From assembly GCA_019638615.1 (NCBI GenBank), contig JAHBTL010000008.1, positions 124,001 through 188,000 of the forward strand: DNA of 64,000 bases, given 5' to 3'. The DNA is from Chitinophagaceae bacterium. Lineage in GTDB: Bacteria > Bacteroidota > Bacteroidia > Chitinophagales > Chitinophagaceae. This document shows, piece after piece, positions 3,937 to 18,392 of this stretch (position 1 is the stretch's first letter; every line of letters starts with the position of its first letter). The notes beneath the pieces are model-generated. The model was not told where the DNA came from and searched no databases. It saw nothing but the letters and a program-made list of their open reading frames with translations. A program made the position numbers and the translations under genes.

Positions 3937-4049
3937 TTTGTCATGCCGAAGTATGAGGCATCTATCTTCGCTCCAGTCACTGGTTACATATTTATAGCCT
4001 TTTGCTATAGATTCCTCTCCCGACCTTCGGTTGGGATCGGAATGACAAA
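3937..4049. repeat. Dispersed intergenic repeat, copy 2
   Basis: Same build as the copy at 3768: it begins TTTGTCATGCCGA, carries GGCATCT and AGATTCCTC blocks, and ends with CGGAATGACAAA. The centre differs in sequence. It also contains CCGACCTTCGGTTGGG, a small local palindrome. Copy 1 and copy 2 lie in direct orientation. The remainder of the 3750-4174 gap shows no credible gene. Confidence 0.7.
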
Positions 4050-4174
4050 CAAAAGGAAGAGGAATGAACTGTGGAGATAGTTCCAGACACCACAGCCCTC
4101 CCTGTCATTTCAAAACGCTTTAGCTGTACAAATGGATTACTCAATATCACATCCACGCAACCCGGGTGATACGC

Positions 4175-5797
4175 TTATACCAGGCTGAACGAATCGCCAT
4201 CAAACAACCCCTTGTCGCTTAGCTTCAGATGCGGGATGACCAGCAAAGCCATGAATGAAAGCGTCATATAGGGAGCACTGAGCGAAGAACCCAGATCTTT
4301 GGCAGCTTTATCTATTGCAGCATATTGACGCGCTATTCCGTAACCGTCTTCATCGCTCATTAATCCTGCTACAGGCAAAGGCAATATCATTTCATTGTCT
4401 TTCGAATAAAGGCTTACTCCTCCTTTATGACGGATGATGCTGTTTACAGCCTTGCATATGCTTTCATCATCTGCACCCACAGCTACTATATTATGACTAT
4501 CATGCGCAACCGAAGAGGCGATGGCCCCCTTCTTTAATCCGAAATTTTTGATGAATGCGACCGCTACCGGTGCATTGCGGTAACGGTTCACCACCACTAT
4601 TTTTAAAATATCTTTTTCTATATCTGCTGCCTTTACAAATCCCTGCTGCCATTTCCCGGTAATCAGTTGTCCGTCGAATGCTTCTATTACAGGAGCATTT
4701 TCATTTAAGGAAATGATCCCTTCACCTGAAAAATCACTTGCAGCTTTCATTGAACATGAAAAATTATTAACCCGGGGCAACCTGCTGTTCTGCGGAAGCT
4801 GAATGTTCGACATTCCGTTTTCCGCCACCAGCGAACCTTTTATATAAGTTTGAAGTACTTCAAAATGCGTGAGATTGTTGACCAGGATAAAATCGGCGTT
4901 GTCTCCCTCCTGCAGCAAACCGGTTTCCAGCTTATAATGCTTTACAGGATTGATACAGGCCGCCTGCAATACATGAAATACATCTATACCCTTCGCTACT
5001 GCCCGGGCGCATAGCTGGTTGATATGTCCTTCCGCAAGACTGTCAGGATGTTTATCATCGCTGCAAAACATTATTTTATCAGGATAATCATGCAGGAGGT
5101 CAATTAACGCGTCAAAGTTTTTAGCGGCGCTTCCTTCTCTTATTAAAATGAACATACCATTTTTAAGCTTGTACAAGGCTTCTTCCCTTGTAAAACACTC
5201 ATGATCTGTTGAAATACCAGCCGCGATGTATTGTCTGGCCTGCTCTCCCGTCAATCCCGGCGCATGCCCGTCCACAGGCTTGCCCAACTCATGCGCCGCT
5301 TTGATTTTCGCCATCACTTCAGCATCCTGCATCAATACTCCGGGAAAATTCATCATCTCGCTCAGGTATTTAATTTCAGGTTTTTGCAGCAATTGCCTTA
5401 TCTCGCTTACATTTAATGCAGCGCCTGCTGTTTCGAAGTTCGTTGCGGGAACGCAGCTTGGCGCACCAAAATAAAATCCAAAAGGCACTCTTTTCCCATC
5501 TGCGATCATGTATTCCACCCCTTCCATTCCACATACATTGGCAATTTCATGAGGATCGCTTACTGTTGCAACGGTGCCATGCACTACTGCCAAACGCGCA
5601 AATTGAGAAGGTGTCAGCATGGAGCTTTCTATATGAACATGCGCATCAATAAAGCCGGGTAAAAGGTAAGGCAACCGGTCTTCGATATTCCGGTTGAACA
5701 ACTTTTCAACAGATTGAATTTTATCATTCAATATCGTAACGGCAGCGGGAAATACATCCCTGTCCTGTATGTCTATAAAGTTTGCCTTAATGATCAT
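4175..5797 (-). CDS. ade: Adenine deaminase
   Basis: This 540-residue amidohydrolase deaminates adenine to hypoxanthine in purine salvage. The N-terminal metal site HVHIESSM (His about 53 and 55) follows LLPGFIDA. Next come [14 protein letters not shown], the STDHE signature and CSDDKHP, all as in bacterial Ade. A C-terminal domain with [11 protein letters not shown] and GLMSDE is specific to Ade and separates it from dihydroorotases. I chose the ATG at 5797; an in-frame TTG lies three codons upstream, but the shorter form starts MIIKAN, as in relatives. The gene stands alone and converges with the M20 dipeptidase gene across the repeat-filled gap. Confidence 0.93.
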
Positions 5798-6030: not shown

Positions 6031-6403
6031 TTCAACGACCTTTGGGTCAACCCGAATAATTTCAGTTTTGCTGCTCCTCCAACCGTTACTTCTTTTACGT
6101 CTGTATCTGTTGCTCCCGGCCTGATCGTTACAGGTACCGGTACCAATTTTACCGGCGCTACTCAGGTTACCATAGCAGGTGTGAGTGCCGTTTTTACTGT
6201 TGTTCCCACCACCTCTGTCACGCTGTGGACAGCCTGTTTATCACTAGCAGGTAATGCAATACAGTCAGCTCTTCCGCTCATATATTGCAGTTGAATTATA
6301 GTTTTCCCAAAGGAATGTATTGGATTAAAGTGGGAGGACAGAACAGGTTCTGCAAACAGTTACCGGCAATAATACTGTAACCCTGCTTCTACCGATAAAA
6401 TAA
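6031..6403 (+). pseudogene. Remnant of a cell-surface protein gene with IPT/TIG domain and sorting tail
   Basis: Between adenine deaminase and the lipoprotein gene there is no intact frame, but translation gives recognisable fragments. From 6076 one frame reads PPTVTSFTSVSVAPG and then TGTGTNFTGATQVTIAG, the usual pattern of an IPT/TIG immunoglobulin-like domain. A stop lies at 6292. In the next frame from 6291, NYSFPKGMYWIKVGGQ resembles a type IX secretion C-terminal sorting domain. A further frame change then gives LQTVTGNNTVTLLLPIK and a stop at 6401. A terminator hairpin begins two bases later. I read this as the decayed 3' end of a T9SS cargo gene with at least two frameshifts. Family assignment rests on pattern only. 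Confidence 0.5.
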
Positions 6404-6458: not shown

Positions 6459-7625
6459 TCAATTTAAGAGGTACCAGGAAGCCGGGTTAACCCGGTTATA
6501 AAATTTCACCAGGTCACGCCCACCTCCTTCCCGGTCGGGTTGAATGATGATCAGGAGACGGCAGGACACCAAATCTATTATACCATCCGGCCTTGCAGCA
6601 AAGCTGCCTGCTTGTGGTGTTGAAGTTCCCAGTGTGGAAAGCACTGTATTGGAGCTAAGCGTCCATGTTCCTTCCAGGAAGCTGCGATCGAAATCTTCTT
6701 TTACCACACCCGGGGCTACCCCGCAAAAATTACTTTCTTTAGGGTAAGGATCAGCTGAAATAAACTCTGTCAGCCCCGCATAAGTGCCGTCTTCGAAGAA
6801 TTTATACAATTCATTGGGCCAGTTAAAAAAAGTCCTGAACATTAAAGATGCTTTATCCTTATCTGCGCAACTTGCAGTGTATTCGGAAGTAGTACCCCCA
6901 TGACAACAACCGAAAATGCGCTGACCTTCGATACCCCACAATTTATGAGGCGCATTAAAAAAAAGATCCTCTCCCAAAGGATCGCTAGTATTCGGTATAA
7001 AAGACATGCTCCAAAACCAGGACTCTCCTTGTTTTGTAAGAAGCCCGCATTCACCCCGGAGATCCGCTGTTGGCTCAGCAATTTCAACCGGTACGGTAAT
7101 TTCACCCAGCGTCTGGCCGGTTGAATCGTGAGGAACAAGCGTTACTTCAAAAGGAGGCGCCCCTCCGGCCGGGGGTACACCGGAAAGATCTTCCAAACCT
7201 TTCGGATCAATTCCAACAAGTATCATAGATACGGTATCGCTGGCAGCAATATCAGGCACTTCGGGCACATCATAATAAAAGGTTCCGCCGATTGATCCTG
7301 CCTGCACCTGTATATATACCCCTGCTACGTCTTTCGTTGTATCCTCATGCAGAAATTCTATTGGAAGCTTCCATTTATCAACCAGATAGAGTGTGTCTTT
7401 GAATGATATTTTTAAAGAACTGCCCGCCGGGCCTTGGGGGATGCTCCCGGTTACTTTTGTAGCATTCTTAAACCTGAGATGATTGGAAATGATGTCAGCG
7501 GCTTTGGTGTCATCGTTACGGGGGGGATCAGTATTATCCTGGCCGGGTGTTTTCCTGCATGAGCACAACAATGCTGCAGTCAATACCATTAACCACAAGC
7601 TGTATACAGGTTGTACATGTTTCAT
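6459..7625 (-). CDS. Putative lipoprotein of unknown function
   Basis: This 388-residue protein starts with a type II signal peptide; the lipobox LCSC places the lipidated Cys at about residue 23. The mature part opens with a charged, disordered stretch (about 25-45). The middle is beta-rich and looks like an immunoglobulin-type domain (about 50-185). The C-terminal half has six or more cysteines, including a GECG, an FGCCHGG and an NFCG motif, suggesting disulfides outside the inner membrane. I do not recognise the family. On the minus strand a TAGCTTTG box (7646-7653) lies about 20 bases upstream of the ATG and fits a Bacteroidota -7 element. The divergence of the 3' region from any neighbour suggests a single-gene unit closed by the terminator at 6405. 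Confidence 0.65.
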   Translation of the reverse strand: MKHVQPVYSLWLMVLTAALLCSCRKTPGQDNTDPPRNDDTKAADIISNHLRFKNATKVTGSIPQGPAGSSLKISFKDTLYLVDKWKLPIEFLHEDTTKDVAGVYIQVQAGSIGGTFYYDVPEVPDIAASDTVSMILVGIDPKGLEDLSGVPPAGGAPPFEVTLVPHDSTGQTLGEITVPVEIAEPTADLRGECGLLTKQGESWFWSMSFIPNTSDPLGEDLFFNAPHKLWGIEGQRIFGCCHGGTTSEYTASCADKDKASLMFRTFFNWPNELYKFFEDGTYAGLTEFISADPYPKESNFCGVAPGVVKEDFDRSFLEGTWTLSSNTVLSTLGTSTPQAGSFAARPDGIIDLVSCRLLIIIQPDREGGGRDLVKFYNRVNPASWYLLN

Positions 7626-8787: not shown

Positions 8788-8948
8788 CCGTTCGCGGGAG
8801 ATCCGTCATTTCGAGTAAACGATTAGAGAGCTCAATCATTGGGTCGTGACAAGTTGTATTCTTTTACAGTTTTTGCATACGTCTTGATTTGGAGAAAATA
8901 TATCAGGGTTCTGTTGCTGAGTTCACAGTAGTGCGAAAGCCTAATCAA

Positions 8949-9028
8949 TCCCGCAAAAGCGGGACGGGAAATGGCGGTAATCATTTCCCGGCGGCTTTTT
9001 GCGTTACTTTTTTCCGCAAAAAAGTAAC
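8949..9028. repeat. Cluster of three hairpins ending in GTTACTTTTTT palindrome
   Basis: Three inverted repeats follow one another: TCCCGC/GCGGGA (8949-8964, 4-base loop), CGGGAAAT/ATTTCCCG (8965-8990, 10-base loop) and GTTACTTTTTT/AAAAAAGTAAC (9003-9028, 4-base loop). The last is a perfect 11-bp stem with A/T tracts and could end transcription on either strand. Similar short palindromes recur in many bacterial genomes in noncoding DNA. A 108-residue open frame over this region is most likely an artefact of the repeats. The rest of the 8539-9386 gap holds the weak remnant at 8563, a dispersed repeat at 9133 and the lpxD-type promoter. Confidence 0.55.
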
Positions 9029-9132
9029 AAAGAAACCAGCGCCAGGCATTGTGGTTGAAAAGAAAGCGAGTTTTATAAGTAACAAACCCGCAGTTCATAC
9101 TTTATTGATAAATAGTGAACTGAATAATATGT

Positions 9133-15050: not shown

Positions 15051-18000
15051 ATGGAATATAATTTCAGGGAGATTGAAAAACGCTGGCAGCAGCAATGGAA
15101 AGAAACAGGCGCTTATAAGGTAAGCAACCGCTCGCCCAGGCCCAAGTATTATGTGCTGGACATGTTCCCTTATCCAAGCGGGGCGGGCTTACATGTGGGG
15201 CATCCGCTGGGGTATATTGCCAGCGATATTTTTGCCCGCTACAAGCGTCTGAAAGGATTTAATGTGCTGCACCCCATGGGGTACGATGCTTTTGGCTTGC
15301 CGGCAGAGCAATATGCCATTGATCATGGTATTCACCCGGCAGTATCTACCGATAAAAACATCAATACTTTCAGAAAGCAACTGGACAATATCGGCTTTTG
15401 CTACGACTGGGATCGTGAAATACGCACCAGCGATCCGCAATATTATAAATGGACGCAGTGGATATTCCTTCAATTGTTTAAAAGCTGGTACAACCGCAAA
15501 ACAAAAAAAGCGGATAGTATTGACAGATTGATCAAAATTTTTGAGACGGAAGGAAATATCAACCACGAAATTCCCAATTCTAAATTTCAAATTTCAAGCC
15601 TGTCTGTGGCGGCAGATCTGAAATCGCAGGTCTTTTCTGCTGCTGACTGGGCATCGTTTGATGAATTTACACAGCAGTGTATATTAATGGAATACCGCCT
15701 GGCATACTGTGGCTACGGGGAGGTAAACTGGTGTGAGGCGTTGGGAACCGTATTGGCCAACGATGAAGTGATCAATGGCGTAAGTGAGCGCGGCGGTTAC
15801 CCTGTAATAAAGAAAAAGCTGCGGCAGTGGTACCTGCGCATTACCGAATACGCCGACCGTTTGCAAAGCGATCTTGATACCCTGGAATGGAGCGACGCCA
15901 TGAAGGAAATGCAAACCAACTGGATCGGAAAGAGCAGCGGGGCGGAAATGGTATTTCCCCTCTCTATCTCTCCCCGCAGGGGAGAGGAAACGGAGGAGAA
16001 TGAAGCGAAGATTGTGGAGAAGGACAAAGAAAATATTCCTGGTTTTGGATATGCAAAATACAAGGTGGGCAGCGAAATGAGCTTTGAAAATGCCAAACGC
16101 ATGAGAAAGGAGCCTACGGAAGCTGAAAAGTTATTATGGAATAAATTAAAGAATAAAGCAACCGGATATAAATTCAGACGACAGCATCCAATTGAAAACA
16201 GCATTGCGGATTTTGTTTGCTTAGATACATGGTTGATCGTAGAAGTAGATGGAGGATATCATGAAAATACGGAACAACAGCAACTTGATAAAGAACGGGA
16301 TGCTTTTTTGAAAGAAATCGGTTTTACTACTCTACGGTTTACAAATGAACAAGTAATAGGCGATGTTGAAAAGGTGGTTAAGACGATCAAAGCTACCTGT
16401 GATGAAATTAAAAGTACAGGCGCCCAAAAAAGAGCTGCAGCCGGGAGCTCCTCTCCCTTGCAGGGAGAGGCGGGGGTGAGGGTATACACCACCCGCCCCG
16501 ACACCATTTTTGGTGTGGATTTTATGGTATTGGCTCCTGAACATGAACTGGTGGAGCAGATCACCACGCCTGAACAAAAAGCCGCGGTGGACGAATATGT
16601 TGCCTGGGTAAAAAGCCGCAGCGAACGGGAACGCATGGCCGAGAAGAAAATATCGGGTTGCTTTACCGGGGCGTACGCGGTCAATCCTTTGAGCGGTAAA
16701 GAAATCCCCATCTGGATCAGTGAGTATGTGCTGGCGGGATATGGCACCGGCGCTATTATGGCAGTTCCCAGCGGCGATGAACGCGATCATAAGTTCGCCC
16801 GGTTCTTTCATATACCCATTACCAATATTTTTGGAGAAGCATACAAAGGCGATGAAGCCATTGCGGATAAAAATGTAACACTGTACAACAGTGATTTTAT
16901 AACCGGTCTTAAGGTGAAAGACGCTGCGGAAAAAGTAATTGAATGGCTGGAAGATAACGGAGATGGCGAACGGAAGGTAAATTATAAAATGCGTGATGCA
17001 GCGTTTAGCCGTCAGCGTTATTGGGGCGAACCTTTCCCCATTATCTGGAAAGATGGCATTGCGTACCCCATGAAAGAAAGCGAGCTGCCACTGGAATTGC
17101 CTCATGTAGATTCTTACAAACCGGGACCTGAAGGCGAAGGGCCGCTTGCCAATATTTCATCCTGGGTAGACATCCCTACGCTGGACGGAGACCCAACCGG
17201 GCTGCGGCGCGAAACCAACACCATGCCCGGTTACGCCGGCAGCAGCTGGTATTTTTTGCGGTACATGGATCCCCACAATAACGAAGCTTTCTGCGACCGG
17301 GAAGTATCTGATTACTGGAACCAGGTGGACTTATACATTGGCGGCACCGAACATGCAGTTGGGCACCTGCTATACAGCCGCATGTGGACAAAAGCCCTGT
17401 ACGACCTGGGATATATCGGCTTTAATGAGCCGTTTAAAAAGCTGGTAAACCAGGGAATGATACAGGGCAGCAGCAGGTTTGTGTATAGAATAAGAGGAAC
17501 AAATTCTTTTGTTTCTTTTGGATTAAAAGATCAATATGAATTTGATGAGATTCATGTAGATGTAAATATTGTAGATGGATTAGAGTTAGATATAAATGCT
17601 TTTAAATTATGGAGGCCGGAGTTTGAGAATGCAGAGTTCATTTTTGAAGATGGAAAGTATATATGCGGAACACTTACGGAAAAAATGAGTAAGCGATTAT
17701 TCAACACGGTTAACCCCGATGATCTCGTGAACAAATACGGCGCCGATACCTTCCGCATGTATGAAATGTTTTTGGGCCCGGTGGAGCAAAGCAAACCCTG
17801 GGATACTAAAGGAATTGAAGGGGTACATCGTTTCCTGAAAAAATTATGGCGCCTGTTTTATGATGAAGCCGGTCCCACCTGGACGCTGGCGGCTCCTTCT
17901 TCCCTCGAAAGAGCAGAGCCAGAACCTACCGCAGAAGAGTTGAAAATATTACACCGTACCATTAAAAAAATTGAAGAAGATACCGAACGATTTTCGTTCA

Positions 18001-18392
18001 ATACGGCGGTCAGCGCCTTTATGATAGCGGTGAATGAGCTGACGGATCTGAAGTGCAATAAAAAATCGATACTGGAAAAAATACTGGTGCTGCTGGCGCC
18101 TTACGCCCCGCATGTGTCCGAAGAACTCTGGCACCAGTTGGGCAACAGCGGGAGTGTGCTGGATGCTGAATATCCTGTATTCGAGGAAAAATATATAGCA
18201 GAAACTTCGAAAGCCTACCCGGTGGCAATTAATGGTAAAACACGCACGGAGATCAATATCGCGCTGGATGCTACCCAGCCGCAGATAGAAGCAATTGTGA
18301 TGGCGGATGTTGTTGTACAAAAATGGCTGGATGGAAAACCGCCGAAGAAGATCATCTATGTGAAAAACAGGATGATCAACGTGGTGATGTAA
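15051..18392 (+). CDS. leuS: Leucine--tRNA ligase with an inserted DUF559 domain
   Basis: This class I synthetase charges tRNA-Leu. The catalytic core carries HVGH (residues 48-51), and KMSKR (878-882) stands where KMSKS is more usual. The CP1 editing domain is present, with VYTTRPDTIFG (478-488) and AVPSGDERD. The anticodon-binding and C-terminal domains follow. Bacteroidota enzymes are usually around 920-950 residues; this one has 1113. The excess is mainly an insert at about residues 303-477, between GAEMVF and VYTTRPDT, which contains a full DUF559 domain. A second short insert lies at about 170-194. The frame is open throughout and no frameshift is needed. A TAATTTTG box at 14964 is a candidate -7 element. 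The stop lies 4 bases from the stop of the convergent FAD oxidoreductase gene. Confidence 0.93.
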   Translation: MEYNFREIEKRWQQQWKETGAYKVSNRSPRPKYYVLDMFPYPSGAGLHVGHPLGYIASDIFARYKRLKGFNVLHPMGYDAFGLPAEQYAIDHGIHPAVSTDKNINTFRKQLDNIGFCYDWDREIRTSDPQYYKWTQWIFLQLFKSWYNRKTKKADSIDRLIKIFETEGNINHEIPNSKFQISSLSVAADLKSQVFSAADWASFDEFTQQCILMEYRLAYCGYGEVNWCEALGTVLANDEVINGVSERGGYPVIKKKLRQWYLRITEYADRLQSDLDTLEWSDAMKEMQTNWIGKSSGAEMVFPLSISPRRGEETEENEAKIVEKDKENIPGFGYAKYKVGSEMSFENAKRMRKEPTEAEKLLWNKLKNKATGYKFRRQHPIENSIADFVCLDTWLIVEVDGGYHENTEQQQLDKERDAFLKEIGFTTLRFTNEQVIGDVEKVVKTIKATCDEIKSTGAQKRAAAGSSSPLQGEAGVRVYTTRPDTIFGVDFMVLAPEHELVEQITTPEQKAAVDEYVAWVKSRSERERMAEKKISGCFTGAYAVNPLSGKEIPIWISEYVLAGYGTGAIMAVPSGDERDHKFARFFHIPITNIFGEAYKGDEAIADKNVTLYNSDFITGLKVKDAAEKVIEWLEDNGDGERKVNYKMRDAAFSRQRYWGEPFPIIWKDGIAYPMKESELPLELPHVDSYKPGPEGEGPLANISSWVDIPTLDGDPTGLRRETNTMPGYAGSSWYFLRYMDPHNNEAFCDREVSDYWNQVDLYIGGTEHAVGHLLYSRMWTKALYDLGYIGFNEPFKKLVNQGMIQGSSRFVYRIRGTNSFVSFGLKDQYEFDEIHVDVNIVDGLELDINAFKLWRPEFENAEFIFEDGKYICGTLTEKMSKRLFNTVNPDDLVNKYGADTFRMYEMFLGPVEQSKPWDTKGIEGVHRFLKKLWRLFYDEAGPTWTLAAPSSLERAEPEPTAEELKILHRTIKKIEEDTERFSFNTAVSAFMIAVNELTDLKCNKKSILEKILVLLAPYAPHVSEELWHQLGNSGSVLDAEYPVFEEKYIAETSKAYPVAINGKTRTEINIALDATQPQIEAIVMADVVVQKWLDGKPPKKIIYVKNRMINVVM
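15558..15632 (+). repeat. Short repeat-like insert inside leuS
   Basis: This stretch encodes about 25 residues including PNSKFQISSL and AADLKSQ, between a conserved IFETEGN and FSAADW. Its DNA (TCTAAATTTCAAATTTCAAG and then CTGTCTGTGGCGGCAGA) looks like the word repeats and palindromes otherwise found between genes in this window, for example at 12854. The synthetase region is naturally variable, so an inserted origin is an inference. Confidence 0.4.
15957..16481 (+). mobile_element. DUF559 cassette bordered by CTCTCCC/GGGAGAG hairpins, in frame within leuS
   Basis: The cassette adds about 175 codons to leuS. Its left border holds CTCTCCCC-gca-GGGGAGAG (15968-15986) and its right border CCTCTCCC-ttgca-GGGAGAGG (16450-16470), each an 8-bp stem. 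Between them lies a DUF559 domain (about residues 340-455) with EAEKLLWNKLKNK, YKFRRQHPI, IADFVC and LIVEVDGGYH. Asp387, Glu398 and Asp400 keep the acidic spacing of the Vsr/PD-(D/E)xK nuclease fold. Similar hairpin words next to DUF559 genes are, as far as I recall, common in bacterial genomes. I interpret this as a repeat-linked cassette that landed in leuS without breaking its frame. No transposase is included. Confidence 0.75.

Follow-up and report, generated by a model that had tools for sequence, protein, structure and literature searches.

A DUF559 nuclease cassette with intrastrand-triplex motif ends, read in frame within leuS and other genes of Bacteroidota

The stretch analyzed here (hereafter the window) comprises 64,000 nucleotides of a Chitinophagaceae bacterium (GCA_019638615.1, contig JAHBTL010000008.1, positions 124,001 to 188,000) and contains a leucyl-tRNA synthetase gene, leuS (15051..18392, plus strand), into whose coding sequence a cassette with a DUF559 nuclease domain is inserted in frame. 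An earlier reading made from the letters alone (the sequence-only reading) had described one open frame of 1113 codons in which conserved leucyl-tRNA synthetase (LeuRS) sequence is interrupted between GAEMVF and VYTTRPDTIFG, and had proposed that the insert is a mobile, repeat-bordered guest of an essential gene. The frame of 1113 amino acids is single and uninterrupted, and the bacterial LeuRS model TIGR00396 matches it at 958 bits (cut-off 548). The interruption is likewise confirmed by residue positions: LeuRS sequence breaks after GAEMVF (residue 297 on) and restarts at VYTTRPDTIFG (residue 478, nucleotide 16482), two blocks that adjoin at residue 237 in the alignment with Thermus thermophilus LeuRS (1h3n). 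The whole cassette, at 15957..16481 on the plus strand (175 codons, 525 bp), lies between them in the CP1 editing domain, and its edges are approximate because the native loop has been replaced. The editing-domain model PF13603 starts at residue 473, which places the insert at the start of that domain. The insertion point is probably a beta-hairpin loop of LeuRS, as in a full-length model that is too poor (pTM 0.39) to be relied on. Flexible linkers probably connect the DUF559 domain to the CP1 hinge, and the protein with its cassette has a predicted mass of 127.6 kDa. The nearest named relative of the insert, in a Chitinophagaceae metagenome-assembled genome, is 82% identical. A genome-wide search of the 7.18-Mb genome revealed no second leuS, the sole other match (E = 7e-5) being a 913-aa frame that is presumably another class I synthetase; this rules out that the window gene is a dying second copy, an outcome that the sequence-only reading had named as fatal to its proposal. 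An intein was also rejected, as Pfam and NCBIfam searches with the complete protein gave no intein or Hint model at E values up to 1.

The domain search assigns the insert to DUF559 (PF04480; residues 346-450, 16086..16400, plus strand; E = 1.1e-31, 109 bits against a cut-off of 20.6), in agreement with what had been read from its motifs, and the earlier numbering of Asp387, Glu398 and Asp400 is correct. Among 104 inserted copies, counted without L055 (at the same place as L068) and L017 (with a partial domain), D387 (16209..16211), H404 (16260..16262) and D413 (16287..16289), all on the plus strand, are invariant (104/104 each), and in the ExD pair (16242..16250, plus strand) E398 is found in 104 and D400 in 103. 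Thirteen cassette pairs were compared for dN/dS, four of which were saturated; eight of the nine pairs that yielded a value range from 0.05 to 0.11, and the ninth, a near-identical metH pair, gives 0.25. These results show that the active site and the reading frame of the cassettes are under purifying selection, and a protein that needed only to fold inside its host would not require the invariant nuclease residues. A profile built from 84 copies matches NGO0050 (3hrl, E = 6.6e-36), the catalytic domain of I-Bth0305I (3r3p, E = 1.4e-6) and PvuRts1I (E = 0.002). The AlphaFold model of the insert (pLDDT 84) was matched by Foldseek to 3hrl (TMt 0.88, E = 1.5e-6) and to 3r3p (TMt 0.73, with an E of only 4.5e-3), and more poorly to Vsr (0.41, E = 0.13). 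Profile and model together point to a cassette nuclease related in sequence and fold to the EDxHD catalytic domain of I-Bth0305I. Every Pfam match of the 175-residue insert overlaps the nuclease and no separate DNA-binding domain was found in this way, although short unknown regions could escape such a search.

It is also evident that the insert has structured ends. The sequence-only reading had seen an 8-bp hairpin at each border; hairpins are present at both, but they are not plain hairpins and belong to the whole intrastrand-triplex motif described in PMC4666352. At the left end (15957..15986, minus strand) a pyrimidine arm CTCTCCCC is followed by the loop TGC, the purine arm GGGGAGAG, the loop ATA and the mirror tail GAGAGGGG; the hairpin itself (CTCTCCCC-GCA-GGGGAGAG) occupies 15968..15986, with an 8-bp stem and a 3-nt loop. 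The right end (16450..16483, plus strand) reads CCTCTCCCT-TGC-AGGGAGAGG-CGGG-GGTGAGGGT and is inverted relative to the left end, the two borders being mutually inverted repeats over 21 nt (90% complementary). A scan of the window for the triplex motif returned two motifs, exactly the two ends of the insert. Of the four matches listed for the pattern CTCTCCCN{2,10}GGGAGAGG across 7.18 Mb, three are at the leuS insert (two sites, one on both strands); the reversed control of the pattern has none. The leuS border hairpins are not due to chance. The exact TMECO consensus, CCCTCNCCCN3-6GGGNGAGGGN3GGGNGAGGG, is not matched, the window ends being of the CTCTCCCC.../CCTCTCCCT... types; both ends have a hairpin plus a mirror third strand in which A and T are interchangeable, and they represent a wider class than TMECO proper.

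The same design recurs in many of the other copies. Border hairpins of 106 inserted copies score 13.3 and 13.2 on average, whereas the remainder of these loci gives 9.0 and shuffled sequence 8.1, and the left and right borders of 112 copies score 19.8 as inverted repeats, compared with 12.6 for cross pairs and 14.8 for the direct comparison (L055 was kept in these two scores and dropped from the tree, mirror, motif, GGGGWSAS and border-correlation counts). Furthermore, the tail outside each hairpin mirrors the hairpin arm copy by copy: over 173 cassette ends the mirror match is 0.819, against 0.677 in permutations (sd 0.007; 0/200 as high), and it rises to 0.886 (permuted 0.736) when A is allowed for T, as expected of a purine-motif triplex. 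Read as direct repeats, the tails give 0.690 against 0.665, above all permutations but slightly so, and the inverted reading gives no signal. After thinning to 83 ends, the mirror match is 0.797 against 0.653 and the direct match 0.681 against 0.641. By their sequence, many cassette borders are the published intrastrand-triplex motif (TM/PIT), arranged as an inverted pair. Among 111 copies (103 inserted and eight free-standing, copies with less than 200 nt of flank being left out), 66 have a correctly oriented motif no more than 350 nt upstream, 56 have one at most as far downstream and 49 have both, compared with wrongly oriented motifs upstream in four and downstream in seven, a background of 18 in 2190 strand-windows and 0/113 in shuffled sequence. 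The scanner was designed after these borders had been viewed, and the independent test is a wider sample of 44 loci, which is taken up below. Rfam has no match in four cassette loci. The peptides encoded at the borders suggest that these are read through in several frames. Nuclease and borders also vary together: over 3796 pairs of copies in different host genes, nuclease identity correlates with border similarity (rho 0.19; permuted mean 0, sd 0.056, 0/300 as high), and the metG (L118) and ade (L126) copies, for example, have nearly identical left borders.

DUF559 is found in 8 of the 12 genomes of the genus, in 128 of 244 genomes of the family sample and in 222 of 395 genomes of the phylum sample. 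Among 150 family places listed (more exist), 89 are in frames of at least 250 aa. The loci that we fetched contain 110 distinct DUF559 frames, 102 of at least 250 aa; they were selected mainly for long frames, and the host-gene counts are not a rate. In frames of at least 250 aa, 18 kinds of host gene were recognized by NCBIfam or Pfam models or by alignment. They include leuS (two sites), metG and metH (three sites); argB, aroC, cinA, ade, thrB, gcpE and a fused methylmalonyl-CoA-type mutase, presumably icmF; recG, an Lhr-type helicase, an Eco57I-type methylase, hsdR and priA; and a DegT aminotransferase, an M23 peptidase and a MurU-like nucleotidyltransferase, the last under that model's cut-off. 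In-frame copies in 17 kinds of gene other than leuS strengthen the proposal of a mobile guest. The search for further copies that the sequence-only reading had called for uncovered a second DUF559 copy in the window genome, fused in frame to the N-terminus of argB, and showed the leuS site to be filled elsewhere as well; with 28 copies at this site (site A) in the tree set, the site is not peculiar to this genome. Two cassettes share one leuS in G006, G007, G035 and G240 (G and L numbers denote genomes and loci). The HsdR of G073 (L180:1670-5809) has two nuclease guests in one restriction subunit, its DUF559 cassette being joined by a GIY-YIG domain at residues 265-331. In the argB fusion of G005 (L017), the DUF559 part covers no more of the profile than its C-terminal half (65-108), and from its sequence this is apparently a decaying copy.

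Smaller repeats read in frame were observed beside these cassettes. In addition to its N-terminal DUF559, argB of the window genome contains a short repeat that is read in frame as NPPSGVRGRG and has a CCCCTTCAGGGG hairpin (L002:1951-1980). Upstream of argB lies a carbamoyltransferase-like gene whose N-terminus is apparently encoded by a repeat (LPPYTLYLPPFTFHP; L002:285-380) and which also has an internal AACCAAAA repeat read in frame (L002:861-903). Within leuS, a variable stretch at 15571-15640 of the window (PNSKFQISSLSVAADLKSQVF) is similar to the AAATTTCAAATTTGAAATTT repeat that G010 and G011 carry in frame at the cassette site, and it may be another kind of in-frame repeat. At 17889-17931, close to the LeuRS terminus, AAPSSLERAEPEPT has as its counterpart APSPSERAGGEASP in G006, which gives the impression of one more small motif insertion that keeps the frame.

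Among the species of the genus, site A of leuS is occupied in several ways. Cassettes of one type (type A) are found in G000, G007 and G009, and cassettes of another (type B) in G001, G002, G003 and G006. G005 has a DUF559-free scar of 48 bp which, by eye, consists of the left arm of one type B border and the right arm of the other; G010, G011 and G008 have a low-complexity AAATTT-type stretch, and G004 has a short remnant. Six of seven outgroups have a short native loop, and the seventh (G016) a somewhat longer one without DUF559. Sisters joined at 100/99 support in the host tree, which is based on LeuRS and MetH parts, differ at this site (G000/G005, G003/G007 and G001/G011). On this tree, type A must have changed three or more times and type B four or more times to satisfy the starred branches, no fewer than with shuffled labels, and site A overall needs five changes when the scar is scored as B and the rest as none. 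To the right of the type B border, G001, G002, G003 and G005 have an extra GGGGTGA-type tail like the type A end, as if type B had replaced type A there. Abundant motif-only copies of the scar type were sought and rejected: CCTCACCCCN{12,42}GGGGNTGAGG occurs once in 12 genomes, at leuS of G005. Similarly, in metH of the same genus, the loop that follows DF[IV]AP is short and empty in nine species and holds a cassette in three, and the insert needs three changes on the host tree, yet its three cassettes form one starred clade. The metH match of G001 (L192) contains one in-frame TAA. The empty metH sites and the cassette-free leuS scar of a sister species lend further weight to mobility. The motif-nuclease-motif unit recurs in unrelated genes, and from one close species to the next a site may hold the cassette, a different cassette, a scar or nothing.

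A single old vertical insertion in leuS, which the sequence-only reading had named as the finding that would undo its proposal, is rejected, since the two cassette types, the scar and the other states conflict with the host tree. The broader possibility that the inserts are old domains serving their host proteins, for example in nucleic-acid binding, and inherited vertically, agrees with the strong purifying selection, with synthetases and helicases among the hosts and with the single clades formed by the icmF, recG and argB cassettes. We nevertheless consider it very improbable. Adenine deaminase, chorismate synthase, homoserine kinase and a B12 mutase are hosts as well, cassettes are distributed patchily over sister species, the borders travel with the nuclease, and the invariant nuclease residues would be unneeded for a binding role. 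In a quick cassette tree (101 columns, L017 and L055 left out), leuS site A needs nine changes (at least two by starred branches), and aroC, leuS-A, leuS-B and lhr copies are mixed in one starred clade. We regard as likely a different reading, namely a mobile DUF559 cassette with triplex-motif ends that colonizes genes in frame, is translated there without being spliced, and spreads by homing-like copying. That DUF559 itself drives the movement is an inference.

The association of motif and nuclease extends beyond the first loci. In a further 30 loci of the phylum sample, the best-scoring ones, a correctly oriented motif lies upstream in 18, downstream in 19 and on both sides in 15. Among 14 records outside Bacteroidota (E. 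coli and 13 plasmids, the latter chosen from 43 matching records, one or two per genus, before their flanks were inspected), such a motif is present on at least one side in seven and on both in four (two Deinococcus, Synechocystis and Sphingomonas). In E. coli K-12 MG1655, ycjD (1351407-1351760, minus strand) has one downstream motif in the expected orientation at 1351204-1351239 (L197:6205-6240), which is no. 9 of the 23 TMECO in Table 1 of PMC4666352; the main text of that paper has no mention of ycjD, DUF or endonuclease. Another hairpin-like stretch reaches into the 3′ end of ycjD. Our PF04480 search gave no match in the control E. coli genome, although ycjD of MG1655 is annotated as DUF559. 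Among phages, 28 records match DUF559, none across more than 80% of the domain. In the family sample, the commonest motif occurs in 52 of 244 genomes and its reversed control in none; DUF559 is present in 46 of the 52 motif-bearing genomes, compared with 82 of the 192 others (P = 1.7e-9, kinship not corrected).

The motif also bounds elements that lack the nuclease. The window genome has six DUF559-free elements, 216-249 bp long, that have an interior in common and an outward motif at each end (L278:1754-1989, 6098-6314 and 8853-9068; L281:1279-1527, 3972-4193 and 6688-6908), and two further members of this family, likewise without DUF559, have a single motif (L279:1559-1595; L280:1576-1614). 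Several of them are spaced about 2.7 kb apart in apparent repeated units. To judge from their structure, the motif-only elements look like non-autonomous derivatives. Elements of this kind, about 216-250 bp long, would also fit an alternative in which a Y1 (HUH) transposase of the RAYT/TIRYT kind moves triplex-motif elements in trans and DUF559 is a passenger or helper. Y1_Tnp genes are present in all 12 genomes of the genus, and GGGGWSAS terminal inverted repeats, reported beside some TIRYT genes in PMC3733652, fit the GGGGTGAG of many tails here. This explanation seems to us quite unlikely, as nine Y1 loci (two in relatives and seven in the window genome, the latter including a weak match and a gene that contains a stop) show neither the triplex motif in the fetched 1.5-kb flanks (0/9) nor a correctly oriented GGGGWSAS within 350 nt (0/9), whereas 49 of the 111 DUF559 copies have the motif on both sides and 16 have GGGGWSAS on both sides. 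Furthermore, a mere passenger would not need an invariant active site.

Another possibility is pure allelic homing, in which each cassette is a homing endonuclease with a single fixed target and the triplex motifs serve only as structured linkers or scars. The nuclease has I-Bth0305I among its relatives, many species have a cassette at identical points of leuS and metH (with more than one lineage at leuS-A), and the WHO elements of yeast (PMC7282813) offer a precedent for homing without splicing. We hold this to be rather unlikely, because free-standing DUF559 genes of Deinococcota, Cyanobacteriota and Pseudomonadota likewise have the motif beside them and the motif-only elements end in it, so that it belongs to the element and not to the target. 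In addition, cassettes appear to jump between unrelated genes, and the Pfam matches of the insert reveal no DNA-binding domain apart from the nuclease.

According to the mobile-cassette reading that we favor, the canonical element would consist of a compact DUF559 nuclease between two outward-facing intrastrand-triplex motifs in inverted orientation. It would enter a host gene in frame, at a loop dispensable to the host protein, and be translated as part of that protein with no splicing out. The nuclease may cut cassette-free alleles or the motif ends, repair from a cassette-bearing copy would then spread the cassette in a homing-like manner, and rare jumps could reach new genes. Recombination or slippage between the two hairpins would delete the cassette and leave a motif-only scar. 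A broader proposal, to which we give about an even chance, is that DUF559 is the missing mobility enzyme of the PIT/TM repeats, one that would recognize triplex-forming ends and move the element, and that has become an unspliced guest of essential proteins in Bacteroidota; triplex ends and a Vsr-fold nuclease would together define a new class of mobile element.

Several observations weigh against this reading. In the wider sample of 44 loci, orientation is not specific: motifs in the wrong orientation (19 upstream, 19 downstream) are frequent beside those in the right one (24 and 24; background 13/402), and they occur mainly around free-standing DUF559 genes. Strict motifs are missing at one or both ends of 62 of the 111 copies, and all N-terminal fusions (argB, priA, thrB and murU) fail the strict motif at both ends, many of them bearing short CCCCTAAAGGGG-type hairpins in its place. 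Seven of the 14 records outside Bacteroidota have no correctly oriented motif, and four of the five published E. coli motif pairs face inward, to judge from the positions and strands that PMC4666352 gives in its Table 1. The co-occurrence of motif and DUF559 among genomes is to some extent inherent, since every motif at a cassette end counts towards it, and the existence of motif-only elements beside DUF559 means that another enzyme could move them. The clades of icmF, recG and argB cassettes (unstarred, support 83-93) are what vertical descent gives likewise, and cassettes of the same type are old within the genus, dS being saturated among the copies of G000, G007 and G009. No target-site duplication was recognized at the inserts, movement itself was not observed, and a signal of co-conversion in the leuS flanks, in a weak test, is confined at most to the innermost 90 nt.

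Triplex-motif repeats, which are present in hundreds of bacterial genomes, have long been catalogued, and a nuclease between two motifs offers a testable answer to how they spread, including the one beside ycjD in E. coli K-12. The cassettes also show how selfish DNA can reside in essential genes without introns or inteins, by keeping the frame, by borders that are read through and by landing in loops, and they provide natural maps of insertion-tolerant loops in LeuRS, MetRS, MetH, AroC, RecG and other proteins.

In the literature searched, outside which most subscription journals lie, the parts are described singly, and the combination of an in-frame DUF559 with triplex ends was not found; as far as searched, the union of DUF559, triplex motif and in-frame insertion into host genes is new. 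The intrastrand-triplex motif (TM/TMECO, earlier PIT) described by Holder et al. (2015; PMC4666352) consists of a pyrimidine arm, a loop, a purine arm, a short second loop and a mirror purine tail. The cassette borders share this design, with a second loop that is often TTA or CCG, and inverted pairs occur. In that account the E. coli motifs are always intergenic and no mobility gene was found nearby, whereas here the motif bounds a DUF559 gene within coding sequence; TMECO oligonucleotides form a triplex in solution, a stable triplex in vivo was not seen, and horizontal transfer is given only as a possible hypothesis for the spread of the motif. YcjD, listed as a PD-(D/E)XK nuclease in PMC1189080, and NGO0050 belong to the same DUF559 family as the insert, but are encoded by free-standing genes. 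Similarly, the catalytic domain of I-Bth0305I resembles the cassette nuclease in profile and fold, but I-Bth0305I is a mobile-intron protein with extra DNA-binding regions (PMC3943268), whereas the cassette is a bare nuclease domain in an unspliced host. The yeast WHO/HO elements home into the metabolic gene FBA1 without protein splicing, which recalls the unspliced state of the cassette, but they replace the 3′ end of FBA1, are eukaryotic and use another, intein-related nuclease family (PMC7282813). REPtrons and the RAYT and TIRYT systems likewise combine short palindromic ends, an enzyme gene and non-autonomous copies; their enzyme is a Y1 tyrosine transposase (PMC3733652), unlike DUF559, and none of the nine Y1 loci here bears cassette-type ends. 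The Rickettsia palindromic elements are also palindromic, inserted in frame in unrelated genes and translated, but they are about 150 bp long and encode short peptides, with no nuclease described in PMC10969869 and PMC3733652, whereas the cassette in leuS spans 525 bp and carries its own nuclease.

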